Origin: Linanthus parryae | Taxonomy: Eukaryota; Streptophyta; Magnoliopsida; Ericales; Polemoniaceae | Length of the DNA: 64,000 bases | Reading direction: 5' to 3' | Assembly (NCBI GenBank): GCA_023055425.1 | Contig: JALGPY010000003.1 | Coordinates: 49,771,891-49,835,890, forward strand | Part shown: positions 32,126-64,000 of the stretch, one piece after another | Layout of the letters: every line of letters starts with the position of its first letter | Position numbering within the stretch: the first letter of the stretch is position 1 | Translations under genes and position numbers: made by a program | The notes under the pieces: model-generated | Seen by the model: the letters and a program-made list of their open reading frames with translations, nothing else | Database searches by the model: none | What the model was told of the DNA's origin: nothing

Positions 32126-32239
32126 ATTTCCCCTTGATGAAAGACAAAACCAAATTATGTTTGTTCCTTAGTCTCTGCAAAAAAAATACTGATTAGTTCA
32201 CAATTCATAATGACACAGTGATTCAAAAAAGATCCAACT

Positions 32240-33136: not shown

Positions 33137-33677
33137 AAAGAAGAGAAGAGAAGAATATAAATGCTAAAAGAGTTTGAGTTTCAAAAGAAAACTAGAATAT
33201 ATCTCTGATCTGAAAAGATCTGTAATAATCAGAGAAAATTCAAATCTTTTAGGCCATTGGATATAAAGTGTTGTAATACTAGTTTTGGCCTAAAACGTGT
33301 TTTTGAAAAAGGTAGGGGCTATATTGAGCAAATATCTACAGAGAGATCACCCAATACAGAATTATCCAAGTTTATTGACTATTAGTATAGCAGACTTATT
33401 TTCAAGGCTTTGAAAAGGTTTTCAAGGTATTAAAATGCTGTAATACTGCAACAGATAAAATCAAAGCTTTGAGATGATTTTCAAGGCTTTGAAAATCAAT
33501 TCAAACCTTTGAAAACATATACAACTTACCTTTCTTACCTGGTGCTCCCCCTAAACCAATGCATCTTTATTTAGCATTCCCAATTCCAATCTTAGAGCTG
33601 AGAATCTTTCACCTGCTAATGGTTTAGTGAAGATATCTGCAATTTGCATGTTAGTGGCAACAAATTTAAGAACAATA

Positions 33678-34999
33678 TCACCTTTCCATTAGCTGTTGAG
33701 CAATCCATAGTACTTGTGAACAACATGCTCCTGCAGCTATATATTCAGCTTCAGCTGTTGATAGAGCGACTGAATTCTGTTTCTTGGAATGCCAACTGAT
33801 CAAGGATGATCCAATAAATTGGCAAGTTCCTGAAGTGCTTTTCCTATCAACTTTGTAACCTGAAAAGTCAGCATCTGAAAATCCATGCAATGAGAAGTTA
33901 GAATTTCTTGGATACCAAAGATATCTGAATATTCTCTTCACAGCAGTCAAGTGTGATTCTTTTGGATCAGCTTGAAATCTAGCACACATGCATACGCTAA
34001 ACATGATATCTGGTCTGCTTGCTGTGAGATAGAGTAATGATCTAATCATACCTCTATACTCTTTCTATCAACACTCTTACCATATTCATCCTTGTCTAAG
34101 GAAAGTGTAGAAGTCATAGGAGTCTTTGGCTTCCTTACATTGAGCCATGCTATATTTGCTTAACAAGTCCCTTGTGTATTTGCTTTGATGCAGAATATGC
34201 TCTTCTTCAATTGATGTATTTGAAGTCCTAGGAAGAAGTTCAGCTCTCCCATCATGCTCATTTCAAATTCCCTGCTCATAAGACTTGAGAATTTTCTGCA
34301 CAATTGATCATTAGTAGCTCCAAACAAGATATCATCAACATAGATCTGAACAACAAGCAAATCTTTCTCCTGAGTCTTTATGAAAAGAGTCTTGTCTACT
34401 AGTCCTCTTTTGAAATCATTTTCAAGCAAAATTTTGACAATCTTTCATACCAAGCTCTTGGAGCTTATTTTAAACCATAAAGAGCTTTGTCAAGTTTGTA
34501 AACATGATCTGGAAACTTGTCATTTTCAAAACCAGGAGGTTGTGCTACATAAACTTCTTCTTGTAAGTAGCCATTCAAGAAAGCACACTTCACATCCATT
34601 TGAAATAATTTCATGTTCTTGTGAGATGCAAAAGCAAGTAAAATTCTAATTGCTTCTAACATGGCAACTGGAGAAAAAAATTCCTCATAATCAATACCTT
34701 CTTATTGGTTGTAACCTTGAGTAACTAACCTTGATTTGTTTCTGATCACTTTGCCACTTTCATCCAACTTATTTATGAACACCCATCTGGTACCAATGAC
34801 AGACTAGCTTTTAGGTGGAGGAACCAGGTTCTAAACCTTATTCATTTCAAACTCATTGAGTTCAATTTGCATAGGAATGATCCAGTCTGTTTCTTGTAAT
34901 GCTTCTTTCACAGTTTTTGGTTCTACAAGAGAAATAAAAACATTAAAAGCACATAAGTTCTTCAACTGTGATCTAATTTGTGTACCAGTGGTTGGATCT
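33678..34999 (-). pseudogene. Copia reverse transcriptase and RNase H, broken
   Basis: Reverse transcriptase blocks include [37 protein letters not shown], and the catalytic QIYVDDILFGATN (YVDD) at about 34345. FEMSMMGELNFFLGLQI follows. RNase H contains SRPDIMFSVCMCARFQ, DADFSGYKVDRKSTSGTCQF and TAEAEYIAA, with acidic residues in place. The domains sit in several frames (34662-34465, 34429-34160, 34049-33678) with stops in between. Confidence 0.88.
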
Positions 35000-35025
35000 G
35001 AAATGATATTATCAACTGGATGATA

Positions 35026-36134
35026 TCAGAGATATTTGAATCTCTTTCTTGGAGACCAAGGTTCAGGTTTTCCATAGATCTTCTCTGGTCTTGAAGTAGT
35101 GGCTTTTGTCACTTGTATCCTTTTGATCATCTTTTTCAAAACTTTGAGGCTTATTTTCAAGGCTTTGAGCACCATTTTCAAGGTCTTGAAAATGTATTCT
35201 GTTTTCTTCTGAGCCTTTCTTGAATCCCAGTGGATTCTCAGTCTCTTCCTCTGATTCATGCTTGTTCAAATTCAAGTCTGCAAAACTTTCACTCAAAGAA
35301 CCATCATAACTTTCATCAAAATAACATGAATGCTTTCTTCAACCAGTTTGGTTCTTTTACTGTAAACTCTATAAGCTTTTCTATTCAGAGAGTAACCAAG
35401 AAAGATACCTTCATCACTTCTTGCATCAAACTTACCAACATTGTCTTTTCCAATGTTATGGACAAAGCATGTACAATTAAAGGGCATGAAGTATGAAATA
35501 TTTGGCTTCCTCCCTTTGAATAGTTCATAGGGGGTCTTCTTCAGAATAGGTCTGATCAAGCACCTGTTCAGTATATAGTTTGTTGTAATCACAACTTCTG
35601 TCCAATAATGTTTTGGCAACTTGTTTTCAAGAAGCATTGTTCTTGACATATCTTCAAGAGTCATGTTCTTTCTTTCAACAACACCATTCTGTTGAGGAGT
35701 TCTTGGAGAAGAAAAGTTGTTAGAGATACCATGTCTATCACAGAACAAATCAAATTCTAATTGATCAAATTCTCTACCATGATCACTTCTAATTGAAGCT
35801 ACATGTAGGTTTTTCATAGTTGAAGTTCTTTGGAAAGCTTTGAAAATTCAGAGAGGGCTCAAAATTTTTCTTTGAGAAACATAACCTAAGTATATTTAGA
35901 AAAATCATCTACAACAACTATCATATACCTTTTACCTTTTGGAGTAGGAGTTCTCATAGGACGACAGAGATCCATATGAAGCAGTTCAATGGGTCTAGTT
36001 TTACTTACAAACTTCTTTGGCTTAAAAGAGCTTCTGGTCTGCTTGTCCTGAGCACAAGCTTTGCACAATTCATCTTCTTTGAACTTGATGGATGGCAATC
36101 CTCTTACCAGGTTTTTGGAAATCAACTTGTTCAA
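35026..36134 (-). pseudogene. Copia integrase, broken
   Basis: The frame after the pre-integrase motif carries GLPSIKFKEDELCKACAQDK (the CxxC of the zinc-binding end) and PIELLHMDLCRPM with the first catalytic Asp. After a gap, SDHGREFDQ carries the second Asp and TPQQNGVVERKN the Glu. The C-terminal GKFDARSDEGIFLGYS block is typical of Copia integrase. At least two frameshifts occur (near 35885 and 35295). The linker before reverse transcriptase (35026-35296) is rewritten by palindromic repeats (FQDLENG, QSLEN, QSFEK). Confidence 0.85.
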
Positions 36135-36140
36135 AGTATG

Positions 36141-37238
36141 CTAACTAATATGACCAAGCTTCATGTGCCAAAGCTTTGAATCATCTTTCAAGGCCTTGAG
36201 ACACTTCAAACTTTTACCCGCAACTTTGTTAGTCTGAAAAGTATAAACATTGGTTGATCTAGAGGCTGTGAGAATGCAATCTCCTGATTTCTCATTGTGC
36301 ACCACACATTTCTCTTTATCAAAGATAACCTTATTGTCATTGTCACAAAGCTGAGATACACTAAGCAAGTTAATTTTCAAACCATCAACTAGATACACAT
36401 CAGAAATAGAGTTTTCAGAATTTGTACCAACTTTACCAATACCAAGAATATGGCATTTTCTTTTGTCACCAAGTGTAATTGAACCTTCCGATTGCTCCTT
36501 CAGTTTTGAGAATAGAGATCTCTTTCCATCATGGGTCTTCAGCAACCACTGTCCATAAACCATTTTTGTTCTTTGGTGACACCCTGCAAACACCAATGTG
36601 TAGTATTTGGATTCATATTCAGGATCAACCATGTTAGGTGGTCTAACCCCTTTAGGAACCCATATCTGTTTAACTTGTCCTTTGAGTTGAAATGGAAAAG
36701 TGTTCCTCCTTATGTGAGGGTCTCTTCTTCTGAAAGGACAAGTCATTTTAACATGACCAGTTTTACAGCAGTAATGACATTTAGAAGAAGTTTTGTTTCC
36801 AGCCTTCACAAATCTGGTATTGTTCTTTCTTGGAAAGTTTGGATTGAATCCAATACCAGCTTTGTGAACTGACTGTGAACTTGATCCAAGAATCAATTTC
36901 AACTTGTGTTCTGATCTAGCAAGCTTAACTTTGATCAATTCATATTCTTGAAGTTTCTCAGTAAGAGTAGTCTTTTGTTTTTCTAATTCATCAACTTGAT
37001 GTTTTAGATTAACAAGGTTGTCACTCATCAAAGAGTTCTCAGTGACTACTTCATTGACTTGTGTTTTCAAGGCTTTGAAACTGGTTTTCAAGGCCTTGAA
37101 ATCACTGTCAGTTTTCTTCTGAGAGATTTCAAGATTCTGATTTAGACAAACAAGTTGTAAGTTCTCTTTTGCTTGCTCATGAAATTTTTCTTTCAAAATT
37201 TTGATCTCTTTCAGATAATCTTCTTCATTTAAAAGCAT
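36141..37238 (-). pseudogene. Copia gag end, zinc knuckle and damaged protease
   Basis: An open frame of 365 codons. Residues 1-120 are a coiled coil rich in Leu/Lys/Glu, and part of it is written by the element's palindromic repeat (FKALKTSFKALKT). A CCHC zinc knuckle follows (CHYCCKTGHVKMTC). The protease region should carry an Asp-Ser-Gly active site in a WYLDSGCSRHMTG-like context. Here only WLLKTHDGKRSLF remains, so the catalytic Asp is gone. It ends with the pre-integrase motif LWHMKLGHIS. Confidence 0.85.
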
Positions 37239-37241
37239 TAT

Positions 37242-38431
37242 TCAAAGATAATATGAAAGAGCATCTTTTGGTTTATAAATCATACAGTTTACCATTACCT
37301 CAATGTTCTTCTCAGAACTTTCATCATGCTTCGCCATGAAGCATAGGTTGGCATGTTCTTCTTCAGATTCTGATTCACTTGAGCTATCTGAACCACTCCA
37401 TGAAGCTATCATAGCTTTCTTTCTTCTGTCATGGTCTTTCTTTTGAAAGCTCTTGCTTTTCTTGTGTGGACAATCTCTTATCAATGTTCTGCATCACCAC
37501 ATTCAAAGAAATTCATGATCTTTGATTTACTTTGTGAAGAAGACTTACCTTTGTAGTCATTGCTACTGGATGGTCTATGTCTTTATCTGTTGAAGTCTTT
37601 GTTTCCAAAGTTTTTCTTAATTTTGAGAATCCCTGTCAAGGCTTTGGAAATCAAAGAAAATGGATCTTCATCATCACTATCCTCAGTTTCAAGGCTTTGA
37701 GTTCTCTCATTTTCTTTGAATTTGAGAGCTAAGTTCTTGACACTTTCTGGGAGCTCTCCATCAGCTTCATTCATAGATATTTCATGTGTCAGAAGCTTCC
37801 CTTGTATATCATCAAGTTGTAGAGTTGAGAGATTCTGAGCTTCTTCAATTGCTGTGGTCTTTGGTTCCCACTTTGTCTTTGGAAGACTTCTTAGAATCTT
37901 CCACACCTTTTCTTCATTGGAAAAATGTTTTCCCAGTGAATCAAGGTTCTTAACAATGTATGTGAACCTCTTGAACATGTCTCTAATAGACTCATCCTCA
38001 TTCATCTTAAAAAACTCATATTTCCTGAGATAGATGTTGATCTTGGTTTGCTTCACTTGACTGGTTCCTTCAAAAGTTACCACAAGTTTATCCAAGATTT
38101 CTTTGGTAGTAGTACAGCTTGAAATCCTGTTTAATTCATCTGTACTCAAAGCACAATATAAGATGTTAATAGCTTTGTAGTTCTTAGAGAATTACTCTAA
38201 TTCAAAAGAGGAAAGTGAGTCTTCAGATTTGGGAGTTCTAATCCTATCTTTATCTGTGTAGAAAGTGTGAGGTCCATTCTGAATAATGGTCCAAAGTTCT
38301 ATGTCTTCATCAATGATGAACATTTTCATCAAGGCTTTCCAGTGAGCAAAATTTTCTCCACAAAATAGAGGAGGTCTGTTAGCAGCTCTTCCCTCTGAGA
38401 ACCCACCATCACCTGCAGTACTCATGATCAC
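37242..38431 (-). pseudogene. Copia gag (UBN2-type capsid), broken
   Basis: Begins with an MSTAGDGG-type N-terminus and RPPLFCGENFAHWKALMKMF, the conserved start of Copia gag. The UBN2 region follows (LVVTFEGTSQVKQTKI, KYEFFKMNEDESI, ILRSLPKTKWEPK). A Ser/Glu-rich segment and a degraded zinc knuckle (HKKSKSFQKKDHD) end it. It spans at least three frames: 38431-38192, 38149-37583 and 37484-37242. A stop follows position 38192. Gag would form the particle; this copy cannot make full-length protein. Confidence 0.85.
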
Positions 38432-38458
38432 CAGATGGTTAAATCTATACAGTGATAC

Positions 38459-38473
38459 AAACTCTGATACTAA
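38459..38473 (-). promoter_or_regulatory. Copia primer binding site
   Basis: On the minus strand TTAGTATCAGAGTTTG follows the LTR after one base. It is a slightly decayed form of the initiator-Met site TGGTATCAGAGC. Confidence 0.75.
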
Positions 38474-38474
38474 T

Positions 38475-39749
38475 TGAAAGTGTGAGTGTGCATGTGGTAA
38501 TGCAGCTAATATACTCTAGAAGGGAGGGGGGGTTGAATAGAGTATGCCAACTTTTTGCAAAGCTGGCTAGGATGAAAAGATCTGTGAAAACTAGTGAAGT
38601 TCAAGCCCTTGGAATGAAGTACAGTTTGGAAATATCAGTCAATTCAAGGCCTTGAAAAGAGTTTCAAACCCTTGAAAACAGACAAGTTTGAATGCTGTGA
38701 AATGCTGAGTAAGTAAGGAAAATATAAGTGCAAGAGACACAGGATTTATAGAGTTCAGTCCACTTGGACCTAAGTCTCTACCTCAGGGATCTTCTCCCTG
38801 CAGGATTTTCAACACAATTCTTATTAATCAAAATCTAAGCCTTAGATCTCAAGCACAGAGAGATGACTTACTCTGTTACAGCTTGTGGTTCTTCCTAACC
38901 TATGTAGTACCTGCTCTAGCTAACTGATTAACTAAGAATTATCTATTGTTCACCTTGAAAAATCCTTGATAATAAAGATAGAGATATTACATAAATGATC
39001 TACCAATAAAGCACAATACAGAAGAACACTTAGAGTGTAGAAACTGCAGTGAAGTATGCAGTCATCTTCTGTGAATGGATTGTGATATTGATGAACTTCT
39101 TTGATGCTTGTCAATCCAGAACTTTTTCTCTCTTTTTGTCCGTTGAGTGTTGTGTCCTGTTGCTTCAGAAATGAGCTCTATTTAAACTTCAAACAGCTCT
39201 ACATATCTTCCCAGATTTTTAGCAACAGATCTCCTATTTAGTAGGCAACAGACTTTGACTCTTTGACAATCTTCTCCAATGGTTAAGTGATCACAATATT
39301 CAGAGATAATGTCGTGATCTTGCATTTTAATAGGTTGAGAAGTTGTCAAGCCATTTAGATCAAACACAGAATCATCTTCTCAATTATATCCTTTCCTACA
39401 CAAGTTAGATTAGGAAATAATCTCTGCAAACTAGGAAATAAAATTCCCTGCTAAAACATAGTCAAGCAAATGATATTCTATGTTCAAACAAGTTACAATA
39501 ATTTGTCTTTCATCATCAAATAACAGTAAGACAATCATATAAAGGAGAGATATGAAATCAACTTAGAAGAGTTTACAGAAAACTGCCCCTGAGAATGTTC
39601 ACATAGGTTAAGCAGTTTAAAGGCTTTGAATCCAGTTTCAAGGCCTACACTATTTTCAAGCCTATGAGAACTGATTTAAGGCTTTGAAAGCTGGTTCAAG
39701 GCCTTGAAATAGTTAGACTATTCCAAGCCTTGCACAAACTGATCTTATA
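38475..39749 (-). repeat. Copia 5' LTR (right)
   Basis: 1,275 bp, homologous to 30828-32125 with many substitutions and small indels, including loss of one copy of the AAGGCCTTGAA-type repeat near 38600. Confidence 0.92.
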
Positions 39750-40702
39750 AACTTGTTTTGTTTACTGCGGATTTTATGAATAGCTAGATTTGTTATCTAG
39801 GTTCTATGGAGATGAACCTAGGGTTTATGCACTAGACAAAGTTTCCGGATTAAGTATTTGATTCATGTTTCGATCTTTTAATTGTATTGTTCTTCTTGTT
39901 TATCGTATATCTTGATCACTTAGGGCGATTGACACGTCTAGGGTGACAAGAACAACGTTGGGAAGATGAATCAATAGGTTATTTGAATCGTAGCTTAAAG
40001 ATTATTGTCTTGTTAGTTGGATTGATTGTTATGAACTAATTACATAGCCTAAAAGGACTCGCGAACCAGTTAGGCTAGCTTTCTAGGTGGGTGCTCGAGA
40101 GAGACTTTACTAGATACGAACGAGAACATGAAATTAACCCGAATCATTGAGACTGAGAGGTGAGATGATAGGACTAGTCGTGTGAGGGTAGATCCGATTG
40201 TGTAGCGTTGGGCATTGGTGGACCGATAGGACCCAATGATCAGCTTAACGTTAGGCGATTAGAACCATATCGGTGGACGATGGTGGACCGACAGGACCCG
40301 TAGTCGACTGATAGGTAGAACAACATGAGACCGAGAGGAGATTGTCAATGCTATTACCCGAAACAACTGATTAGATGATATCGTGTTTCAGTACTATACA
40401 CGGAACTGTCTAAAACCCTAGGAGATCCATAGATCGCCTAGTTATTCTCCATACCTATTTACTAATATAAAAAATTCAAAAATATTAGTTAGTTGTTTTT
40501 TTTTTTCATTTCAGTTACTTGTTTGAGGGTGAAGAATTCTTATAAATCAATTTCTTCCTCCTGTTACTGTATTCTGAATTAATAACTAATTAAATAATCT
40601 CAAGCTTGTCCTCGTGGGATCGATAACTCGGGGTTGAAATACCACCCTAAATTACTTGACCGTGCACTTGCGCATACGCGTTAGTAAATCCGCTTCGGTT
40701 AC

Positions 40703-50938: not shown

Positions 50939-53510
50939 TGTTGAGAATTATTCGTCGACCCGAATTCCCGTCGCAACGGAAGAAAAAACACGCCACACGA
51001 TCACACACTCAACGCACACAATTTAGGAGAACAAAAACGACACACAAGAATTTAATGTGGTTCGGCAAAACTGCCTACATCCACGGGAGGAGGATAATTT
51101 CACTATATCAATGAGGGAATACATCGTAAGGGCGAGACAACTCAATTCGTGGACCACGTCAACACGGTACTCTCATTATCATGGCCTACAACCATGAAAC
51201 CCTAAACCTCCCACATCCGCTCAAAGATATCTCTCACCACTCCTCTCCTCAATTAGGACTATTGTAGAGCCGTCTATAAATAGGCCACATAACTTGCTCT
51301 CCAAGTAATTCCAATTGAAACAATATTAGGATATAAATCAATAAGGAATACTAGTAGATTCCGGATTCTACTAGTTTCCAAATATGATAAATACCCAATA
51401 TTACCAAAAAGCATAATCAAGATAAAAACCCAACAAACTCCACCCTGGCTGGAATTCTGCAACCACCCGGCAAATCCCTTAGCCATGCGGGAGCTCTCCG
51501 CATTGATGTCAATTTCGCTGCATCCGTCATACTCCACCTGCATGGAACGCCATTGCATCAACACATAGATTCTCTGCACCCCTCCTAGGGCGCTGCCTCG
51601 CACCCCCGACACGGGTGCGTCCCAAAGCATGCCACTTTGGGGAGTAGTGTGGCTCCAGCTCTCCACCAGCTAGCTCATCACTCGATAATTCACCACCAGC
51701 CACGTCAAGTGCAAACGAGACTCGCTTCCTCTCCACAACTGCAGTAGTTTTCTTCATCATCGTTCTTGTCACTTGAGCACCATCTCGAACAACCTGCAAC
51801 TGCTGCACAAAAACTTCACTATCTCCATGCTTCAGCGCCCTCACACGTCAACCACGTGTTTCTCCACGCCAGCCCTTAGTGCTTCTCCTTGTGTTGTTTC
51901 TTATAATGTTCGATTACACGCACCAAGACGTCTTGCAAAGCCACCGCTTTGCGAACCCGCCCCGACTTACTCTCTTCTTGCCTCGAGTTGCTCAAGAGTT
52001 ATCGTCGCGAACCACACACATAGAGATATTAGGACGCCACATCTGCCATGGCCTTGTCAACTGCTGTGTCCACCTCCTCGATCTCTGCCCTGGAGCTTCT
52101 TGTGAATTTCCTTCCAATAGTTGCCCACGTTTCTGACCAGACTCTTCTACAACTGTTGCGTCTCGTGCTCACAATCACACAAAGCCTATGCTTGTTGCCA
52201 ATGTTGAACATCAGCTCTACCTGTCAACACACTCCCAAGCTTGCATAGGTTGCCAATCGAACGTTTCAATTAGGAAAAACGCCTCTAATTGACACCACCT
52301 GATTGGACTTAAACTTGATTGACCCTGATCGCACCCCGGCGTCTTCGATCTCCCTAACGATATCGATTGATGCCGATATTCTCAATCCGCTCAAAATCTC
52401 AAAATTTTGACCATACCGATGAATCTGCAACGTCCAAAAGCATGGGGTTAGACTCCTGGCTCATCCCAATCAGATCTACATGCACGTCGTAACCACTCGA
52501 ACAAATTTGGACCGTTGATTCACGTCGATCCGCTGTCCAGTCAGCAATCTACAAAACCCCGCCACAATTTGTAGAATCTGACCCTGCAACCGCGTCCGGA
52601 GCGTCCAAAAACTTCGGGTTTGACTCCTGTTCGAGCCCATTCAGACTTACAGGAACCTCTCATCAACCCAAACAAATCTGAACCACTCGATCGCCTCTCG
52701 GAGCATTGCAGTACCGTGGACCAGCTACATCAGATAATCCCTCTGCTGTATTCCCACTACAGCAGCAACACAACATGTGCACTCATTATCTCCTCCCTTT
52801 TGTCCATGCCACTTCACCATTAGCCCCACGTGCCTTCCAAATTGATGTCTCCATGTCACATGAAGTATCAACAATCGGCTGCACCAAATAACTTCTCTTG
52901 CTGGTCCAATTCCTTACCACGGAACCACCTACCAGCCCCTTTTATCACTTATAGCCACGAACAAAATAAAAAAGGAACGATCAGACCCTTTTTCTTACCT
53001 CTTTTTTTCAATTTTTTTCCACGCTCTTTCAATTCTTTTCGCGTGCTCCACCCGGATCGTGAACCTGACTATGATACCACTTGTTATGAATTATTCGTCA
53101 ACCCGAATTCCCGTCGCAACGGAAGCAAAAACACGCCACACAATCACACACTCAACACACACAATTTAGGAGAAGAAAAACGACACACAAGAATTTAGCG
53201 TGGTTCGGCAAAACTTCCTACATCCACGGGAGGAGGAGAATTTCACTATATCAACGAGAGAATACATCGTAGGGGAGAGACAGCTCAATCTGTGGACCAC
53301 GTCAACATGGTACTCTCATTCTCATGGCCTACAATCATGAAACCCTAACCTCTCACATCCGCTCAAAGATATCTCTCACCAATTCTCTCGCACCACTCCT
53401 CTCCTCAATCAGAACTATTGTAGAGCCGCCTATAAATAGGCCACATAACTTGCTCTCCAAGTAATTCCAATTGAAACAATATCAGGAAATAAATCAATAA
53501 GGAATACTAG
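50939..53510 (-). mobile_element. Non-autonomous Copia-like LTR element, right LTR interrupted
   Basis: The left LTR (50939-51435) begins TGTTGAGAATTATTCG and ends AAACCCAACA. A second copy starts at 53082 (TGTTATGAATTATTCG) and is about 90% alike. On the minus strand a primer site TGGTATCATAGTCAGG lies just inside the right copy. A purine tract (GGGTGGAGTT) abuts the left LTR. The 1.65-kb internal region shows no gag or pol. The right copy stops at ..GAATACTAG (53510), where the Tat-like gypsy element begins. The missing ~70 bp should lie beyond the window. Confidence 0.8.
51436..53081 (-). other. Internal region of the non-autonomous Copia-like element
   Basis: Reading frames on the minus strand (for example 51844-51527) show no known domain. 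An imperfect direct duplication of roughly 170 bp (about 52430 and 52595, sharing CGTCCAAAA and TGACTCCTG blocks) is visible. Non-coding filler or a captured fragment are both possible. Confidence 0.5.
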
Positions 53511-54136
53511 TGTGCACAAGAGATTCCGGCGGGGAGACCTCCGTGTACACCGTACGTAGTGGATCAGGGATCGCACAGGAAGAATAGGGGTGTGTGTAGG
53601 GAGAGAGTAAGTCAATAGCAATGTCTGAGAGAGAGACAGAGGTTTGGCAGAGCTTCCGCGTATGGCAGTGTGTCCTCCTTTGTATGGAAAGGTTAACGAT
53701 GTATATATACTGGAGAACGTGACCGTTGTAGTGTGGTTAATGCGCCCATTAATGGCGGCTTAATTAGCTTAACCATAACGGCACGTTCGTCCGAGTATAT
53801 AGGAACCGTTAGAGCACGTGGTGCGCGAGTACCGGAACCGTTACGAGGTTGACCGGGTTTGACCGGATTGACCGGGTTTATGGAGCTCGTGCCATAAATC
53901 TCTCAAAACAGTTACTAAAGGTCGCGCGCGGGCTTGGCTCGCACGCGACAGGGCTTACTCTAGCCTCCAGACCACAAAGTCCCTACAAGTCCCGTGCAGT
54001 GGTATGCGAGGGCTCTGTCTCGCAGCCCCCACATGGATCAGCTCGGCTGGTGATCCCGTGTGTGTGGAGCACAATATGGTGTGCTGGATGGTTGCCACGT
54101 GGCCTAGATCTGCCATGTCATAAAGCAGTATCTACA
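53511..54136 (-). repeat. 3' LTR of the Tat-like element
   Basis: On plus it runs TGTGCACAAG to ..GTATCTACA, 626 bp. A TATATATAC motif (minus, about 53700-53710) is placed to drive pol-sense transcription. The outer limit is inferred from the break in the neighbouring Copia-like LTR, the inner from the adjoining purine tract. Confidence 0.7.
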
Positions 54137-54151
54137 TTAGCCCCCTTTCTG
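54137..54151 (-). promoter_or_regulatory. Polypurine tract of the Tat-like element
   Basis: On the minus strand CAGAAAGGGGGCTAA ends directly against TGTAGATACTGC, the LTR start. It would prime plus-strand DNA synthesis. Confidence 0.75.
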
Positions 54152-54398
54152 CGCGTGAAGGCTCATAGCTGTATAGGCTTCCATGCGCGGAAACCAACAT
54201 GCGCGTCGTCGCCACGCACCAATTCAAATACGGGTAGGTTCAGCCCCCGTGCGTGTCATTATGACCTAAAACCCCTAGAGTCGTGCCGTCTGACCTTTAG
54301 GGTTTTAGGCGTGACGTCAGCCCGTCCTGTGATTGCGCGACACGACGGTGACGGTTGCGATTCGACTACTGAAGGGACGCAACCCTTCATTCTTCTGG

Positions 54399-54405
54399 AT
54401 AAATA
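54399..54405 (+). promoter_or_regulatory. TATA-like box of the antisense gene
   Basis: ATAAATA, about 420 bp before the start codon. A polypyrimidine stretch ending TTTCGCAG (54816) four bases before ATG looks like the acceptor of a 5' UTR intron. Confidence 0.5.
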
Positions 54406-54818
54406 CCTTGTATCCCATCATTGCAAAGCATTACTTCTTTCTCTTAAAGTGAATGGTACCCGGAGATCTTCGAGAGCAGATCCAGATAATCAATCACCAG
54501 TTCAGAACTGCAAATCGTATTCTCCAATTGTGCATATCCAGGCAAGCTTCAAGGAAACAAGGTCTTCTTCGTTTACTTTTGATTTAAACTACCAGTGTTT
54601 GCCTTGAATCGCATTGAATCTGTAAATCCATGAAATTTGTGAAGAGGCTTTTGATCTTTGAACCCGCTTCGTTTTAATCTTTCAACGATATCAACTCCCC
54701 AATTTCTGAAATCGGCACCGAAACTGTTTGCTTTGGTTTGCATAGATCTCAAATCCCAAAATTCAAACTGAAGTGTGGTGTGGTATTTCTCCCCCCTTTT
54801 TCTTGCCCTTTCGCAGGA

Positions 54819-57800
54819 ATGGCCAAGACAAGAGTAACCAGACCCGTGAAGGAAGACGAAGAGATGCCGGAGCTTCCGCAGGCTCTGTGGCGTAAAGCCC
54901 CCTTTCTGGGTGGGAAGGATTTTTATCATGCGAGGGTGAAGGCGAAGAGGATGCCTGATCCTGTTCCTGCTGAGCAATTGCTGACGTTGACTCGCCCAGT
55001 TAACTCAGCCCTGCTCGAGTGGGTTGGTTCCGAGGATGTAGTCCGATTGGGGATCGAGAACGGGCACTTCCCGTATACTGCGATTTCTACTCAAGCGTTC
55101 GTCCAGAAATTGGACTACATGGATGAGTGGATTGACCACGTATTGGATCATCATGCCGAGACTCTTGATAAAGCCGGCATTTTCTTTGCTATCCGTGCTA
55201 TGAAGGGTGCTGCCGTGAAGTTGGATCAGTCCATGCTTCTAGACCTTCTGTCCCGTTATTCGCCCGCGACTCACACGTTTCATTTTGCTGAGTTCGAGGC
55301 TGCCCCCACGCTCGAGGACATTCAAATGCTGTATGAGCTTTCCCCCATGGGCGAGGTGGACCCCTTGAGCCACTTGAGGACATCTGCTGAAATGGCCTTG
55401 TACGCGCAGATGGAGGAGTGCCTAGCAGAGGTAAAGAAAATCTCTACTCGGTGGACCACTACGAAGCCTCTTCCGAACTGGCAGCTAGTGGATACGTCTG
55501 CGAAGAATACCTGGAACAAGTGGTTGCAGTACTTCTTCCGAGACTATGCGAACAGCAGCATCACTAAGAAGCTCTTGAGCGAGAACCCGGAGGCCGAGAA
55601 TTATGTAGAGGGCAAGGGCTATCATTTAACCCTTTGCGCCTTTCTCTGTGCTTGGCTGTCGAGGTATCTGATTGATGGTCATCCCCATGACGGGGTCTTC
55701 TACCATGTGCTACCACTTGCTGTGAGGCTCGCTCTTGGCCAGAGAGTCGCACTCGGACCCTTGGTCCTGGGGACGCTATATTACAGGCTGGATCAGCTGG
55801 TTCTGGCGATGAGGGAATCGCGTGGCCGCCTCGATGTCCTGACCTTTGTCAATATCAGCTTTTTGACAATGTGGGTTTTCGAGCGCTGGCCGTCTTATGC
55901 TCCAACTCCCCTCCCACTTGAGAAGTGGTGTCCCCCAGGCGAGACGGAGGCACGCAACAGCGGAAGGGCTGCGAGATGGTTTGGAGCAAGCAACACCAAG
56001 TGTACTTGGAGTTTGATATGCGACAAACGAAAGGAGTTTACTGCCAGGCCCTATGCTACACGTGTCGAGAATGTGCGGTGGTTTCCCAACCTATACCCTT
56101 CCAGAGGTATGGTCTTGTCAGAAGACCTTCTCTTTGAAAAGGGGCCGCATTTCCACGAACGCTATCGTGACTTCTTCTGTTGGTGTCTGCGGGGTTCTCT
56201 TCCTGCCCTTGCAGAGCATATTCGTGAGCTCGCGCCACGGTATGAAAGACTTACGGTGGATGTTGACCCTACTCGGGTCTCTCCTCAGTTTGGTTTTGAT
56301 GCGGTGGCCCCATCGATCTGGCCCCAGTCTATTATCAGAGGGTGCTACAAGCGCTTGCTGACAAAGGAGTGCAAGACAGTCCTCATGAGCAATCTTCCCT
56401 TTGAGCAGCCTGCGGGAACTCGCAAGGGTGGTTGTTCCCAGAACTGGATCGCATACTGGGTTGCCCAGCAAACGAGGATTGAGACGGAGGCGGCGGCGCA
56501 GCCAGGAAAGGCCCCCTTGATCAAGAGAAACTCTTTTCCCTTTCGCCCCAATTGCAGTTTGAGCGAGTCTGAGTATGGTTGCTACTCGCTGTGGGACCGT
56601 GAGAATCATCTGTGCCCCGATTTCATTCTGAAGGAGCAAGTCGACGCAATCAAGAAGGGTGACACGCAGGTCGTCAAATATAGCAAGGCGTTTGCTGAGG
56701 TAAGCAATTTCCTTGTGTGCTTTGAGCCTTTTGATTTCCTCGCGCTGATGCTTTTCGTTCTGTATTGTTTAGTGTCATGTGCGGAGGTTCGCAGCTGGTG
56801 ATCGCTCCAAATCGCTGGTGGACACCATTGTTGCCACCAGAAGGAGGGGGGAGTCGTACCGGCTAGCATGGAGGATGGATGCCGAGGTCGAAACAAAAGT
56901 TCGCGGGGTCATGAACACTTTTGCTGACTCGCTGATAGACAACCCTCCGGCTCCGTCTCCTCCTAGAGATGACCCGTCCCCTCCAGCGACTGCGGCGCCG
57001 AGAGCGAAGAGACCTAGGCAAAAGGGGATTACGATTTCTTCCCCTAGGAGCGCTCCAGCTTCTCCCCCAGTGAGGTCCCTTTCCATCAAGGACAAAGGCA
57101 AGGGTCGTATGCCCAGCAAAGTGCGAAAAGATCTCGCAGTTGAGACTTTCGTTCCATTCAACCAAGAGGAGGAAGAGAGACAGGAGCCCCAGGCAAGTGA
57201 TGAAGAAGAAGCAACAGTTGTGATGTGCGAGGAAGAGTCAGGAGGTACTTCCGTCGCATCTCCTTGCCTTTTATCTAGACTTCTTTGTAGTTCTTTTCTT
57301 TGAACCAAATATGTATTTGCAGATGATGATGACGAGGCCGTCGGTGGCCTTGTGGCCAAGAGGCAAAAGAAAGATGCCCATTCTGGCATTTCAGATGATC
57401 CTATAAGCGAGGATGTTCTTGCTGAATCCCGGAAGACAGCCGCGGAGGCTGCTGAAAGAAGAAGGCAGCGAGAGGAAGAGGAGCTCGAGCTTGTGAAACA
57501 GCGGAGCCTCGAGGAGCTGCATGTTGACGACTTAGTGCGTCCAGCTGGCGAGGAAGACGAGCTTCCCGAAGAAGTGGCTCCTCATGTGGAGGAGGAAGAT
57601 GAGGTTCCTGGAGAGGACGCAGCAGAGCTAGAGCAAGTCCAAGCGGACTTCGCAGAGATCGCAGGTGGCGATAAAGGTGAGATCTTCAATCTCGCAGTTA
57701 CTTATAGAGATGTAATTGTGGGTGCGTTAAAGCACGGTGTGTCAAAGCCTGACATTCGCCGTTGGTTGGTAAGCAAATGCGGAGAACCCTCAGGTAATTA

Positions 57801-59098
57801 TTTTGAGTGATATGCGCATACTAGGCCGTAGCCACTTGAGGCAAAATCATGACTGGTTTACTCGCGTCCCAGGTCACGCTTCTCTTAAAGATTTGCTTAG
57901 TGAGGATACACTGATAGGGCACGGTTCCACGTCCCTAGTGTACGATGAGGATACCTCAATCCCACCTTCGCGTGGAGGTGCTTATTCTTAGCTTTAGTAA
58001 AGATAGCGAAATAACTTATAACACAAGTTACCTCATATTATCGCATTTGGTATCGCAGGTCATGCTGAGGAACCTGAGCTGGAGCAGAGGAGTCAGCCTT
58101 CTGCATCCCATGTTCCAATTTCGAGCTCCCATACCGAGAAGCCCGTCGCAGCTGCTGGACACGCACGTGAGCATCTCGAGGATGTCATCGAACTCTCCGA
58201 TGATGTCGAAGCTGATGCTGTGCCGATGGACGAAGGTGTCCGTACTGGTGGTGAGGAAGAAAGGACAGGTGATGCTAACATTTTCGCATCTGGGAGTGTC
58301 CGTCCAGCGACTTCGGCTGTCCCTTCGCCTCCGGCGATGACTGAACCAGAAGCACCCATTCCTGCGTGGAGCATTTGGGGCTCGCAGGTTGGGAATGTAG
58401 TCGCAGCTGGTGCGGCCTACATTCTTCCTCCTGACTATGAGAGGTTGGAGCTTGCAGCTGATAGGAGAGCCATGGAGCGAGGGCAGTCTTCGAACAACCC
58501 AGTGGCCCGCATCCCTTCTCTTCATGAAATTCTGGAAGGCACTGGTAAGTAAAGATTTACCGTTCGCACGTCGCATTATTTGCTTGCGAGTTCTGGCATT
58601 ATAACCATTTTTGATGTCTCAGGTTTGAAGCAAACCGATGTAGACTGGGTGGTTCGAATGCGTCTCAGATACCCCCGATCGTTTGTGAGATCTCTGGAGA
58701 TTGGACCTTTTGACAGGAGGCTATTCCTTACTGAAGCCATCTGGATACTGGAGCAGCTGTCTGCGGCTACACCTGCGACCATTTCGGCCCAGAGTGCTGA
58801 ATTGCTGTGTGGCATGTGCCAAAATCTCTTGTTCAAAGTCCAAGGCAGACTTGGTTTCAAATTCCTCAAGGACAGAGTTACACTAATTCGCGCAGCTGTA
58901 ACTTTGAATCTCGGTCACCAGAATCTCGCAGCTGAGATGCAGAAGGTGGAGCAGCAAAAGCAAAGGGTTGATGAAGCTGTCAAGCTGTATCAGGAAATGA
59001 ATGCCAAGTGCGAGCAACTGAAGCAAGAAGTGAAACAAGTGGAGAAGCTGAGCGAGCAGTTCGAGCCCCATGATTCTTTAATCAAGAATTTGTTTTGA
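54819..59098 (+). CDS. Antisense gene of the Tat-like element: plant-mobile-domain-like protein, five exons
   Basis: Five exons join in frame: 54819-56699, 56773-57244, 57323-57793, 58059-58544 and 58623-59098, giving 1,261 residues and TGA. All introns are GT..AG. Exon 1 resembles the plant mobile domain (PMD, aminotransferase-like; found in transposon-derived proteins and in MAIL1/MAIN). Landmarks are a WIDHVLDHHAETLDKAGIFFAI block (residues about 107-128), HTFHFAEFEAAPTLEDI (about 150), ALGPLVLGTLYYRLDQL (about 312), MWVFERWPSYAP (about 350) and ARPYATRV (about 408). Exons 2-4 are disordered, rich in Pro/Ser and Glu. The C-terminus (about 58930-59070) is a coiled coil. The start is the ATG just after a probable 5' UTR acceptor. 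It lies antisense to pol. A decayed homologue is at 7240-22960. Molecular function is unknown; silencing or host-factor interaction is only a guess. Confidence 0.75.
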
Positions 59099-59524
59099 CT
59101 TTTCGAATTTTGAAAAGAAAACAGGAAAATGGCTGAGACATTAATGTAATGTTTTGAAACATTAATGTAATATTGCTAGGGTTTCTCCCCCTTTTTTTTT
59201 TAACAACAAACAATGAGTTTGCCCGTTTTGCCCCTTTTTTTTTGGGATTTGATTGGACATTTCTGTGCATATCCAATTATGACATCAGCAATTGATTCTC
59301 TGCTTGATTTTCGCGCTAATTTCTCGGCAGATAAGCACGCTTCCGTTGGGAAGTCCATCCGAATCATGACTATCCGTCATTTATTAGGATACGCAACTGA
59401 ATCGTCGTAGCCTTTAGTAGGGTAATTGATTGTTACCGCTTTTCAAGGCGTAAGTGATTGAACTTACCCTCTTTTTTGAATTTTGCTGACTCATCTTAGG
59501 CAACCGAAGAGTCTCCACAGGGTC

Positions 59525-60285
59525 TATATAAACCCTGTCTTTGCCATTTGGGTTCTTCATCCCAAACATGTGCTTTGCCGTGAGTCCTTATGACTGCTGG
59601 CTTCAACGCTTGTTTTTCGTTGATTCATGGCAACTTCAAGTTTTGAATCCTGAGTTTGCGCTTTGTGCCATAGAAATAGTTTCCAAGATCCACTTTATGA
59701 GGCTTATTGCTGTTTATAACCGTCATAAAGAGGATGCAGATAATACCTCATGTGTGTTCGAAGAAATTTCTTCGTGTATTATGTGTGCAGGTCATGTTTC
59801 CGGCCGCCTCGTGGCGAGGTGCAGCGCCGAAGTGACCGTGCTACCGTCTCGTAATGAACGGCGGAATTCTCCTCCAGCATCTCCGGGGAAGAATCCGTTG
59901 CCCTCACATTTGTGAGGTCGGGGTGCTCGTCAATGCCCTTGTCCAACATGACAAGGAATCCATCACCAGAGGAATGACTGCTTCGCCTGTTGTGCGGAGT
60001 ATCCTCTGTCGGCACAGGAAGCTCCTCCGGCGCCTATCTTGGTCAGACAGAGGCTTTTGTCATTCCTTGGGGGCTTGGGCGCATCGTATCCCTGACCTTG
60101 CTGCTAGGGATGTGGCGAATGACGAGTTGATCTCTTCGCGGCAGCATCCCTTTTGCTATAGATTTTTGGCCGCGGATCTGCGTACTGTGCTGCCGGTATC
60201 AGGACCGGTGGATTCTCTCTTTTCTTATTCGAGAGTTCCCTTGGCGCATCTCTGGCTTACCAGCCATTTTTCGAATGTATTGTGA
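59525..60285 (+). CDS. Possible second antisense unit, unknown function
   Basis: TATATAAA (59525-59532) is followed at about 35 bp by a plausible transcription start and an ATG at 59570. A possible intron ends TGTGCAG (59790). Beyond it, a 143-codon frame at 59854-60285 is open to TGA. No family is recognised and codon-level evidence is weak. The matching location of a TATAAA in the older remnant (23395) is the main reason to list it. It could equally be non-coding. Confidence 0.3.
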
Positions 60286-60479
60286 GCCATGTTGGCTGTG
60301 TAGTTAGATGCGAGCTTTTCGCTTGTAAGCTGCTATCTAGATAGATAAATTGTAAGTCATTTGACTCATAATGATATATAGCTTTTGTATCATTTGCTTT
60401 TTTTTGCAACAAAATACGATTTCGCATGCGTTTCGGCTTGTTTCGCCTTGCATAATGCCATGTAATGATTTCTCATGCG

Positions 60480-61790
60480 CAGATGTTTAGCTAGATCATT
60501 CGAGATCGTAATTTCGCAGATGTGCCATTTTGACGAATGGGCTTGCAGGTGTTCGTTGTAAATCGTATGAGATCACGTTCACAACTTTGCTATCATAACA
60601 GATAGTTTTTTTTTTTTACAGATCAATTGAGATCATTGAGCGGTGCGAATTGCTATCATAGAAGATAGGCTTTATTGGAGGATTGCTTGAGATAGTTTCT
60701 CGCATGAATTGCTATCGCAGCAGACAGACCTTTAGAAGGTCTAGCAAGATTGTTCTGCAGTTACGTCATCATTGTAACATACGGACTTGGGTGATCAACT
60801 AAAATCACTTTGCGTACAAATTGCTACCGTAACAGATAGGCTTGAGAAGATCATATAAGATCGCATTTGAGTAAACCGCTATCGTGAGAGATAGGATTTT
60901 GATAATCGATTGAGATCGTTTTTGTATTTTTGCCGCCATCGTAGGAGATAGGCTTTGGATGATCACTTGAGATCGCATTTGCATCGGCTGCCATCATAAG
61001 GGATGGGCTTTAGATGATCAGTTAAAATCGCGTTTATGCTGACCGCTATCGTGAGAGATAGGCTTTGGATGATCATTTAAGATCGCATTTGCATTGGTTA
61101 CCATCGTAAGAGATGGGCTTGTAGATGATCAGTTAAGATCACGTTTATGTTGACTGCTATCGTAAAAGATAGGCTTCGGATGATCACTTAAGATCGCATT
61201 TGTATTGGCTGCCATCGTAAGAGATGGGCTTTTAGATGATCAATTAAGATCACGTTTATGTTGACTGCTATCGTAAAAGATAGGCTTCGGATGATCACTT
61301 AAGATCGCATTTGTATTGGCTGCCATCGTAAGAGATGGGCTTTTAGATGATCAATTAAGATCACGTTTATGTTGACTGCTATCGTAAAAGATAGGCTTCG
61401 GATGATCACTTAAGATCGCATTTGTATTGGCTGCCATCGTAAGAGATGGGCTTTAGATGATCGATTGAGATCGCGTTTGCTATCATATGAGATAGGCTTT
61501 GATGATCAATTAAGATCGCATTTGCGTTTGGCTGCTATCGTAAGAGATAGGCTTTGGTGATCATTTAAGATCGCGTTTGCGTTTGGCTGCTATCGTAAAA
61601 GATAGGCTTTAGATGATCGATCGAGATCGCGTTTGCTATCGTATGAGATAGGCTTTGATGATCAATTAAGATCGCGTTCGCTATCGTAAGAGATAGGCTT
61701 TGATGATCAATCAAGATCGCGTTTGCTATCGTAAGAGATAGGCTTTGATGATCACTTAAGATCGTGTTTGTATTTGTTACTATTGCAGCG
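60480..61790 (+). repeat. Hairpin-rich tandem array between pol and the antisense gene
   Basis: Units of about 45-60 bp combine a CTATCGTAAGAGATAG inverted repeat and a GATCACTTAAGATC palindrome, separated by CGCATTTG-type spacers. A 111-bp higher-order unit is repeated almost exactly three times (about 61122-61455). The array is less regular at its left end. Tat elements are known for fast-changing repeats in this position. Confidence 0.9.
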
Positions 61791-62003: not shown

Positions 62004-64000
62004 TCAAGGATAGTACTTCTTGATCCAGCGCATGTTGACTGAGCTTGGAGCTGAGGTTGTGCCGTGCAACCTTCGTATGCTGCAGTAGCCGCTATCGAAG
62101 ACTTCTGTGACTTCGAAGGGTCCTTCCCAATTAGCTGCGAACTTTGGGTGAGTCGCTTCTCGCATGCACTGATCAGATGCGCGCAAGACCAGGTCGCCAA
62201 CTGCGAAATCCCTTCGCTGGACTGTCTTGTTATAGGCGCGAGCGATTCTTTCTTGGTACCGCTTGTTAGTCCTTTTGGCTTGTTCTCGCTTTTCTTCCAG
62301 CAAGACTAAATCATGATCGCGTTGATTTTCATAGAGTGCATGGAAGGCCAGCCTTGCCGAATTGACTCTGACCTCCGCAGGTACTACAGCTTCGGCCCCA
62401 TAACATAGTAGAAATGGCGAGGCCCCTGTAGGTGTCCTTGGAGAAGTTCTGTAGGCCCATAGAGCTATGTTAAGGGAGTCGGCCCACTTCTTGTGGTCAT
62501 CTGCGACCATCTTGCTCAGAATTCTCAACAGCGTTTTGTTAGTCGCTTCGGCTTGTCCGTTTCCCTTTGGATAATAGGGGGTAGAGCATATCTGCCTGAT
62601 ATTGTACTCCGCGAGTTTCGTAGCTACCTGACGATTAACAAAAGGAGTACCGTTATCTGAAAGGATAGTGTTTGGGATTCCAAACCTGCATACGATGTTT
62701 TCCTGGATGAAGTTAACCACAGCCAGCGCGTTCGCCGTCTTTAGTGGTATTGCTTCCACCCATTTGGTGAACAGCTCGGTTGCAGTGAGAATGAAGTGGT
62801 TCCCATGTGACGTTGGTCGGATGGGGCCAATGAAGTCCAGAGCCCATGTATGAAATGGCCATGGCGTCCCTAATGCATGTAGATCCACGGCAGGAGCGTG
62901 CACTAGGTTCCCTTTGAATTGGCATTCTTGGCAGCGTCGCACCTTGGTGCGGCAATCGACTTCCATCGTGGGCCAGAAGTATCCGATTGAGAGGAGTTGT
63001 CTGCATAATTTCGCACCTCCCTGGTGTTCCACTTGATGGGAAAGGTCCATGACTTCTTGTGCTTCCCTGCCGTCTAGGCATCGCAGCAAGTTGCCCTCGT
63101 GACCTCTTCGCCAGAGCAGGTTTTCCTGGACCACATATCGAGACGCTTTCCTTTTCAATTTGTCAGCTTCTTTTCTCGATTCTGGTACGGTGCCCTTGGT
63201 GAGGAACTCAAACAATGGCTTCCTCCAATCTGCGTCGTCATCGGTTAGAGCGACGAGTAGAGAGTCTTTGATTAGTGCGCAACTTTCGCACTTCCCTTGT
63301 ATCAGGGCTGCAGCTGTTGACATGCCTGGCCAATGAATGCCATATCTCTGAGCTTTCCTGTAGATTGACACCTCGCTTTCTCCACAAGCGTGTTGGTGAA
63401 TCTTTTCTAACAGCTGTTGTCCCTCTTGCTCGGAGACACATCGCATGAGTATTCCTCCAGGACCCTTGTAGTAAAGGGTGTTGTCGTGGATGCAGTATCC
63501 TTTCGTGAGTACCCAGCTTTCGCTACTGGTGCCTTTCGCAATAGCTTGCAGGATTGCTTTTCGCCAGTCTGCGTCATCCATGTGTTCATCGTCGCACGCA
63601 TCTTCTGTTAATGCCGACGATGTTCGCACTTCGATGGAAATCCTTGCGGGGCACTTGTCTATGCTGACCTTAGATCCCAGAGTTGCTAAGGCGTCTGCAT
63701 GCCTGTTGTCCGCTCGGGGTTTGTGCTCGTATTTCACGTCGCAGAATTGCTGCATCAGCTTTTGCACTAGGGTACGGTATGGCAGGAGGTTGATCTCCTT
63801 TAAACCATATTCGCCCGAGGCCTGCTTAACAATCAGCTTGGAATCTCCCATGACTGTTAAGTTGCTCACTTCCAAAGCTTTCGCCGCACGGAGCCCCGCG
63901 ATCAGAGCCTCGTATTCCGCCTCGTTGTTCGTGACTGCGAAGTTGAGTTTTGCGGACATCTGTATGACTTCCCCGTCCGGCTTTGTCAAGACTATCCCAA
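62004..64000 (-). CDS. Tat-like pol, 3' part: RNase H, doubled zinc-binding region, integrase
   Basis: Open from the window edge to TAA at 62004, about 664 codons. The numbering below counts from a Met codon at 63989. An archaeal-type RNase H comes first (NNEAEYEAL at 21-29, D49 in GDSKL, D99 in ADALA). A zinc-binding region follows twice: the first copy has H198/H200, C234 and C237, the second H318/H322, C353 and C356. Each copy is introduced by DADWRK. The integrase core has D385 (WALDFIG), D445 (SDNGTPF) and E481 (NGQAEATN), a DD35E spacing. The C-terminal domain ends in the WEGPFEV block with no chromodomain. The frame is uninterrupted. The enzyme would process and insert element cDNA in the nucleus. 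Reverse transcriptase and gag lie beyond the window. Confidence 0.92.
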   Translation of the reverse strand, partial: GIVLTKPDGEVIQMSAKLNFAVTNNEAEYEALIAGLRAAKALEVSNLTVMGDSKLIVKQASGEYGLKEINLLPYRTLVQKLMQQFCDVKYEHKPRADNRHADALATLGSKVSIDKCPARISIEVRTSSALTEDACDDEHMDDADWRKAILQAIAKGTSSESWVLTKGYCIHDNTLYYKGPGGILMRCVSEQEGQQLLEKIHQHACGESEVSIYRKAQRYGIHWPGMSTAAALIQGKCESCALIKDSLLVALTDDDADWRKPLFEFLTKGTVPESRKEADKLKRKASRYVVQENLLWRRGHEGNLLRCLDGREAQEVMDLSHQVEHQGGAKLCRQLLSIGYFWPTMEVDCRTKVRRCQECQFKGNLVHAPAVDLHALGTPWPFHTWALDFIGPIRPTSHGNHFILTATELFTKWVEAIPLKTANALAVVNFIQENIVCRFGIPNTILSDNGTPFVNRQVATKLAEYNIRQICSTPYYPKGNGQAEATNKTLLRILSKMVADDHKKWADSLNIALWAYRTSPRTPTGASPFLLCYGAEAVVPAEVRVNSARLAFHALYENQRDHDLVLLEEKREQAKRTNKRYQERIARAYNKTVQRRDFAVGDLVLRASDQCMREATHPKFAANWEGPFEVTEVFDSGYCSIRRLHGTTSAPSSVNMRWIKKYYP

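Follow-up and report, generated by a model that had tools for sequence, protein, structure and literature searches.

A complete Tat-clade Ty3/Gypsy retrotransposon of Linanthus parryae carries, on the strand opposite pol, an intact gene with several introns whose product contains a plant mobile domain (PMD). The analysis concerns a stretch of 64,000 nucleotides, hereafter the window, and all positions refer to it unless another sequence is named. We regard it as nearly certain that the antisense frame is an element gene coding for a protein, and as highly probable, judging from its sequence, that this gene is spliced as modelled below. That countering host silencing is the protein's main role is a more tentative proposal, somewhat short of even odds. 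To the whole statement, that a recently active Tat-clade element carries this spliced accessory gene and that its product acts against silencing, we assign a probability of roughly 0.4.

The initial annotation, made from the sequence alone, placed a five-exon gene antisense to pol, and its strand and coordinates were correct: the gene lies on the + strand, with the ATG at 54819 and the stop codon at 59096-59098, and pol lies on the - strand. Removal of GT..AG introns leaves a single open frame, and the five-exon form has exactly the 1,261 codons plus stop that had been claimed. The exon count itself probably has to be raised to six, as a 105-nt exon was overlooked inside what had been read as the third intron. 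On the + strand, exon 1 (54819-56699, 627 codons), exon 2 (56773-57244), exon 3 (57323-57793, acidic), exon 4 (57873-57977), exon 5 (58059-58544) and exon 6 (58623-59098, with the stop) are thus separated by intron 1 (56700-56772, 73 nt), intron 2 (57245-57322, 78 nt), intron 3 (57794-57872, 79 nt), intron 4 (57978-58058, 81 nt) and intron 5 (58545-58622, 78 nt). The newly added exon 4 is in phase 1 on both sides, and the frame stays open with it (1,296 aa) or without it (1,261 aa); it may therefore be a cassette exon that is sometimes skipped, and the gene probably has six exons, or five and an optional one. Among the 35 copies described below, exon 4 has 10 variable sites. Five of these are third positions of codons, and the only two that vary in more than one copy are among the five, which weakly suggests that the exon codes for protein.

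Upstream of the gene, a TATA-like site, GGATAAATACC, is found at 54397-54407 on the + strand and is identical in all eight aligned copies. The gene had been credited with its own TATA box; the site deviates from a perfect one, and its function as a promoter is putative. A possible leader (5' UTR) intron, read from the sequence, extends over about 54562-54816 on the + strand and ends in CGCAG, 2 nt before the ATG.

The suggestion that the N-terminal half of the protein has PMD features was confirmed by a profile search, which places the protein inside the PMD family: PF10536 matches exon 1 with 93.4 bits against a curated cut-off of 34.9 (E 2e-26), over about residues 122-498 (121-497 of the piece scanned, which begins at 54822). 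A search of a protein database with exon 1 gave no match at E 0.001 among 7,996 scored candidates, a result that says little because the database presumably contains few plant proteins. Three PDB sequence matches to chitin synthase (E about 0.7) were dismissed as chance, and a single-sequence AlphaFold model of the PMD region (pLDDT 37) gave no usable fold and was discarded. For the possible C-terminal coiled coil in exon 6, all Pfam families of coiled-coil type scored below their cut-offs, the best being BORCS6 with 22.5 bits against 35.

The host element is complete, young and recently active. Its LTRs of 626 bp differ at a single position (625/626 identical); the 3' LTR lies at 53511-54136 on the - strand, with a left boundary that fits the loss of alignment at 53511 among eight copies, and the 5' LTR lies outside the window (L036:4396-5021, equivalent to window positions 68396-69021). 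The insertion is flanked by the target site duplication CTAGT; a polypurine tract, read from the sequence at 54141-54150 on the - strand, adjoins the 3' LTR, and a primer binding site starting TGGTGAACCC, which we take to match tRNA-Trp, begins 3 nt past the LTR. The 3' part of pol (62004-63998, - strand) contains a second RNase H (RVT_3), presumably of the archaeal type, together with an H2C2 motif and the integrase core; pol and gag extend beyond the window, with reverse transcriptase and RNase H at L036:2-1741 and gag and protease at L036:1742-4375. The resulting domain order, RVT_1, RT_RNaseH, RVT_3, rve, has the second RNase H between RNase H and integrase and upholds the assignment of the element as Tat-like. 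This clade is defined by a second, archaeal-type RNase H in pol, which in angiosperm members occupies that same position (PMC6317226).

Within the clade, the element combines features of Ogre and Retand that conflict with each other. As in Retand, where antisense frames are typical (Vicient 2025, PMC11963269; Grande gene23, RIRE2 and Retand ORF4 are examples), the antisense gene sits between pol and the 3' LTR, tandem repeats occur there and the internal region is large; the LTR length also falls within the Retand range (PMC11963269). Outside that range are the distance from pol to the 3' LTR, about 7,867 bp compared with 2,933-6,566 bp, and the internal region, about 14,259 bp compared with 7,380-12,869 bp (PMC11963269). 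Retand frames, moreover, encode Transposase_28 (TRP28, PF04195) in 97% of clusters (PMC11963269), and the present gene has a PMD in its place: a scan of exons 1, 2, 3, 5 and 6 gave no hit to PF04195 at E 1 or better. In a genome-wide search none of 31 candidates matched PF04195, and the controls gave no match either, so that this count does not establish its absence from the genome. Like Ogre, the element belongs to the non-chromovirus Ty3/Gypsy group, its pol has a second RNase H, and an additional frame carries PF10536 (Neumann 2019, PMC6317226; PMD-A1/A2, Ikeda 2017, PMC5418596). However, the Ogre ORFs for gag-protease and reverse transcriptase are described as parted by a gap averaging 274 bp, with an intron in two species (PMC6317226), whereas here they form one frame split by a single TGA, across which an intron is possible. 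The Ogre primer binding site is reported to match tRNA-Arg (PMC9289625). The likeness to the PMD frames of PMC6317226 and PMC5418596 is one of domain; the present gene is antisense, located between pol and the 3' LTR, and has five introns. Compared with the PMD-bearing elements described there, the present one has no space for an ORF upstream of gag, because its gag frame starts directly after the 5' LTR.

Selection on the gene was measured in 35 gapless copies, which were the best-scoring among 8,504 first-look candidates; across the entire family, the proportion of intact copies is therefore probably lower. Among these 35, no internal stop is present in 33, and all ten splice dinucleotides (five GT..AG pairs) are kept in every one, in line with the description of the gene as intact and multi-intron. 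The 20 splice-dinucleotide sites contain no variants, where the variation in the remaining intron sequence predicts 3.8 (P 0.022). Donor positions +3 to +6 and acceptor position -3, 25 sites in all, show no conservation beyond that of the intron remainder, with 4 variants observed and about 4.8 expected. The dN/dS comparison across copies that had been suggested as a check gave a pN/pS far below 1, namely 0.162 for the whole gene (95% CI 0.129-0.203), 0.089 for exon 1 (0.063-0.124) and 0.266 for exons 2-6 (0.194-0.357; individually 0.23, 0.31, 0.20 from few changes, 0.38 and 0.20). In one and the same set of 16 copies, pN/pS is 0.086 for exon 1, 0.158 for the whole gene and 0.092 for the RNase H-integrase region of pol; the PMD-bearing exon is constrained about as strongly as that region, and constraint on exons 2-6 is weaker than on pol. 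Variants present in at least two copies comprise 121 synonymous and 45 other changes, and singletons 160 and 176, two of the latter being stops (Fisher P 7e-8), a skew that selection operating from one round of transposition to the next would produce. The low pN/pS, together with the kept frames and splice pairs, therefore indicates an element-encoded protein gene that is maintained by selection.

These data bear directly on what the frame could otherwise be. Long frames can occur opposite coding strands, but a chance frame opposite an ordinary 3' region is refuted by the PF10536 match and by constraint that is specific to the annotated frame, where pN/pS is 0.16, while four of the five alternative frames give 1.35-1.64; the fifth, an antisense frame, gives 0.235 and is not an independent control, because its third positions are common with those of the gene frame. 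In addition, no known sense domain was found in the region. It is also hardly credible that the gene is a recently captured host PMD gene carried as a passenger. Its nearest relative found in the same genome, L041, exists as one full-length copy, and the 9 kb downstream of it contain nothing that matches pol significantly; it is thus plausible that host and element exchanged such a gene at some point. A recent passenger, however, would still closely match its source, nearly letter for letter, and would be drifting, whereas identity to L041 is 31% (tblastn) to 37% at best (tree comparison), and the gene is present in at least 35 copies with purifying selection among them. Recent capture is contradicted by this distance to the PMDs compared, which are the 16 in our tree, drawn from this genome alone and comprising a part of its PMDs. 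A decidedly improbable reading, finally, makes the antisense transcript itself the product, which would pair with sense RNA and limit copy number through dsRNA, the protein being secondary. The gene does run opposite to the genomic RNA for 4.3 kb, and a dsRNA role of antisense transcripts has been discussed in print (PMC7264820), yet pairing requires no reading frame, and the frame is strongly conserved, with 121 of 166 shared variants synonymous; as the sole product, the RNA is disfavoured by pN/pS.

The kind of gene described here is already known, and the measured constraint is a useful addition. The initial annotation had considered a PMD-like extra gene unusual, which is not supported, as PMD frames have been reported widely in LTR retrotransposons: a survey of plant elements that recorded 15 atypical domains found PMD to be the commonest (PMC9289625), 57% of Ogre elements are described as having PMD in their extra frames (PMC6317226), and two clades of PMDs are said to be exclusively Gypsy-encoded (PMC5418596). 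Host PMD proteins function in transposon silencing (PMC5418596, PMC7156037), counter-silencing by TE-encoded PMDs has already been proposed (PMC8616336), and the role of retrotransposon-carried PMDs is treated in print as an open question (PMC5418596, PMC8616336). To this question the present family contributes a clean case, with at least 35 near-intact gene copies, a young insertion and a PMD exon constrained like the integrase region, a constraint which implies that the extra gene matters for the element's spread. Because the protein is intact and the genome is defined, the family also lends itself to tests of where the protein resides, whether it binds the repeats and how it affects silencing.

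In the mechanism that we propose, RNA polymerase II would transcribe the antisense gene, starting at a promoter in the interval that separates the 3' LTR from the ATG, and splicing would remove the five introns from this transcript. The genomic RNA would retain the same sequences, because they are not introns on the sense strand, so that every new copy would inherit the full gene. The family itself shows that a five-intron antisense gene can persist through many rounds of retrotransposition. The PMD protein would then enter the nucleus, mimic or engage host machinery of the MAIN-MAIL1-PP7L type, and loosen the silencing of family copies in trans. Being under selection, a trans-acting product must benefit the producing copy or its close relatives before silencing. 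The antisense protein of Grande is reported to be nuclear, and its gene to have an upstream promoter of its own (PMC7264820), and HTLV-1 HBZ is likewise an antisense gene of a retroelement, with a nuclear product (PMC11963269); the present element differs from HTLV-1 in coming from a plant and in a promoter that is apparently internal rather than in the LTR, and homology is not expected.

One could also speculate that the protein acts not on silencing but in integration, or in bringing the pre-integration complex into the nucleus, as some retroviral accessory proteins do. Antisense proteins at the same position have been suggested to resemble such accessory proteins in action, that of Grande is reported as nuclear (PMC7264820), and the constraint on exon 1 resembles that of the integrase region. 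We nevertheless consider this rather unlikely: the host relatives whose functions are known take part in silencing and gene expression rather than integration (PMC5418596, PMC7156037), and the product of an antisense promoter, made after integration, would better fit regulation of the integrated copy.

A narrower form of the counter-silencing proposal, which we regard as a long shot, is that the PMD protein counters silencing in a sequence-specific manner, binding the fast-changing tandem repeats and the hypervariable stretch of its own family (59.8-61.8 kb) and lifting the silencing of that family only. This would parallel VANC of the VANDAL DNA transposons, a TE-encoded factor associated with fast-diverging non-coding tandem repeats in the published account (PMC10398659); VANC is encoded by a DNA transposon, and the likeness would be a functional one. 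The element's PMD protein would here stand in for host PMD proteins, and the host PMD silencing genes and the element PMDs would be two sides of one arms race. Between the gene and pol, the hypervariable stretch (59819-60318) shows 7-23% differences per 100-bp step in an alignment of eight copies, with about 20% in the middle three of its five steps, compared with 0-3.5% per step in the gene region of the same copies, and it is followed by tandem repeats at 60822-61774 with unit lengths of 55 and 45 bp.

The plant mobile domain (PMD, PF10536) gene antisense to pol lies at 54819-59098 on the + strand, where the initial annotation had placed it. The five exons proposed there do join through GT..AG introns into a frame that stays open for 1,261 codons, but a further probable exon of 105 nt (57873-57977, + strand, phase 1 on both sides) is found inside what had been taken as the third intron. 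Its inclusion gives a frame of 1,296 codons, and both forms are open. The gene's five introns measure 73-81 nt and contain more A+T than the exons (GC 33-46% vs 48-56%).

We searched the 1.51 Gb genome (121 contigs) for the gene, obtaining 35 scored matches from 8,504 first-look candidates. All 35, the window copy among them, span the gene's 4,280 bases at a listed identity of 98-100% and, being equal in length, were compared position by position. An internal stop is absent in 33 (L003 and L014, two other copies, have one each), and the start, the stop and all ten splice dinucleotides are kept in every one; these are the best-scoring copies and give no estimate of the family's intact fraction. 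Over the 595 pairs of these copies, pS is 0.039 and pN 0.0063, a ratio of 0.161; by bootstrap over codons, pN/pS is 0.162 (0.129-0.203) for the gene, 0.089 (0.063-0.124) for exon 1 and 0.266 (0.194-0.357) for exons 2-6, the individual values for exons 1 to 6 being 0.089, 0.231, 0.307, 0.202, 0.383 and 0.201. The same letters read in four other frames give 1.39, 1.37, 1.64 and 1.35, and a fifth, the one antisense frame in which third positions fall on those of the gene, gives 0.235. Variants present in at least two of the 35 best-scoring copies comprise 121 synonymous, 45 nonsynonymous and no stop changes, where the mutation spectrum predicts 54 of 166 to be synonymous. Among singletons we counted 160 synonymous, 174 nonsynonymous and 2 stop changes (expected 103, 220 and 12); their higher nonsynonymous share is what decay after insertion gives, though it too falls short of the neutral expectation.

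As a yardstick, pol was fetched from 15 of the remaining 34 copies and yielded a gapless stretch in all 15 (13 full, 2 partial), making 16 with the window copy. Across these same 16 copies pN/pS is 0.092 for pol, 0.158 for the gene and 0.086 for exon 1; the PMD-bearing exon 1 is thus constrained like pol, whereas the whole gene is not. A stop is present in one pol stretch among the 16. Intron divergence (0.0186 per pair; 289 sites, splice edges excluded) lies under the gene-wide pS and is similar to the pS of the neighbouring exons 3 and 4 (0.019), with exons 2, 5 and 6 higher (0.029-0.047). The splice dinucleotides show no variants at 20 sites, against 3.8 expected (P 0.022), while the 25 adjoining splice positions hold four, about what the intron average predicts. 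Dinucleotide conservation alone thus argues modestly for splicing; a stronger argument comes from the constrained frame, which runs on across all five introns.

Genes of this kind are already known, and the present one adds another member. Published accounts report that 57% of Ogre elements carry a PMD and 23% of Retand elements carry Transposase_28 (PMC6317226), that PMD ranks first in frequency among 15 atypical domains when consensus sequences of plant LTR retrotransposons are surveyed (PMC9289625), and that clades PMD-A1 and A2 are exclusively Gypsy-encoded (PMC5418596). Antisense frames are described in Retand, with TRP28 in 97% of clusters and tandem repeats in about half (PMC11963269), and the Grande antisense protein is described as nuclear, with its own promoter (PMC7264820). 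Host MAIN and MAIL1 are reported to function in silencing (PMC5418596), and counter-silencing has been proposed for TE PMDs (PMC8616336) and for those of MULE elements (PMC5418596). In the mechanism we propose, whose measured step is the constraint on the PMD half and whose remaining steps we infer, the gene would survive retrotransposition because the sense genomic RNA holds the complement of its introns, which would go unrecognised as introns on that strand, and the protein would be produced after integration, from antisense mRNA. Being most tightly constrained, the PMD half would be the working part, and the faster-evolving acidic middle and C terminus may confer partner or target specificity. 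Given the known roles of host PMDs, our best-supported guess is that the protein interferes with host silencing in the nucleus.

Searched with PF10536, the genome gave 127 matches (117 of 11,793 candidates scored). In a tree of 16 PMDs from this genome, the window PMD groups neither with a dispersed set (L037-L040, L050, L051) nor with the clustered genes (L042-L049), and joins L041, a low-copy locus at G000:C57:122935500-122940200, with support of 100/99, a join that may be false, as the program flags meeting long branches. The first exon of L041 has one full-length genome copy, its five other matches being partial and 65-85% alike, and the 9 kb downstream of it held no significant pol match (best E 0.22). 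L041 may be a host gene, possibly a domesticated or donor gene, so that the proteins encoded by the element and by the host may be sisters in their PMDs. The C terminus of the window protein showed no significant similarity to L041 (E 4.5). L038 and L039 are long single frames (978 and 990 aa), and introns are thus not universal among PMD genes. PMD matches are densely clustered at G000:C57:126.33-127.70 Mb, C46:154.9-155.9 Mb and C2:29.2-29.9 Mb; many of them lie in frames of up to 772 aa that contain no stop and others are interrupted by stops, a pattern that suggests extensive expansion in place.

The element itself measures about 15.5 kb, with an internal region of 14.3 kb. Its 3' LTR (53511-54136, 626 bp) and its 5' LTR, which lies beyond the window in the continuing sequence L036 (L036:4396-5021, window-equivalent 68396-69021, 626 bp), differ by one mismatch; CTAGT flanks the element at either side, a PPT precedes the 3' LTR, and the PBS begins 3 nt past the 5' LTR. 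The - strand encodes gag (PF03732, above cut-off) and an aspartic protease-like part (under cut-off), then, past one TGA in the same frame (L036:1742-1744, window-equivalent 65742-65744, - strand), RT, RNase H, a second RNase H (RVT_3) and integrase, the two RNase H domains preceding integrase as described for Ogre and Retand in Neumann 2019 (PMC6317226). The window copy has an in-frame stop at this boundary, as do 12 of the 13 others examined (the 13th gave no alignment), which suggests regulated pol expression, by readthrough or splicing, rather than decay. Between gene and pol lie 45- and 55-bp tandem repeats and a hypervariable stretch (59819-60318) with 7-23% differences per 100-bp step among 8 copies, in which the neighbouring gene differs by about 1%; the gene-to-pol distance differs by several hundred bases between copies. 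Just past the 3' end of the gene, a TATATAAA core within a near-palindrome (59524-59534), facing both directions and kept in 8 of 8 aligned copies, is a possible second promoter.

Two direct repeats, 92-95% alike and 2.1 kb apart, lie at 50939-51355 and 53082-53511. Since the second stops exactly at the start of the LTR, the element was probably inserted into another repeat. When 8 copies were aligned with 1.5-kb flanks, the letters diverged beyond 53511, as expected of separate insertions, with the exception of L003, whose flank is PBS-like sequence bordering its LTR; this suggests that L003 and L002, another copy 15.1 kb away (G000:C1:184.45-184.47 Mb), form a tandem unit sharing an LTR. Elsewhere in the window, at 30827-39750, repeats about 7.6 kb apart and 92-96% alike flank - strand frames that by eye resemble Copia gag and integrase, probably an older Copia element.
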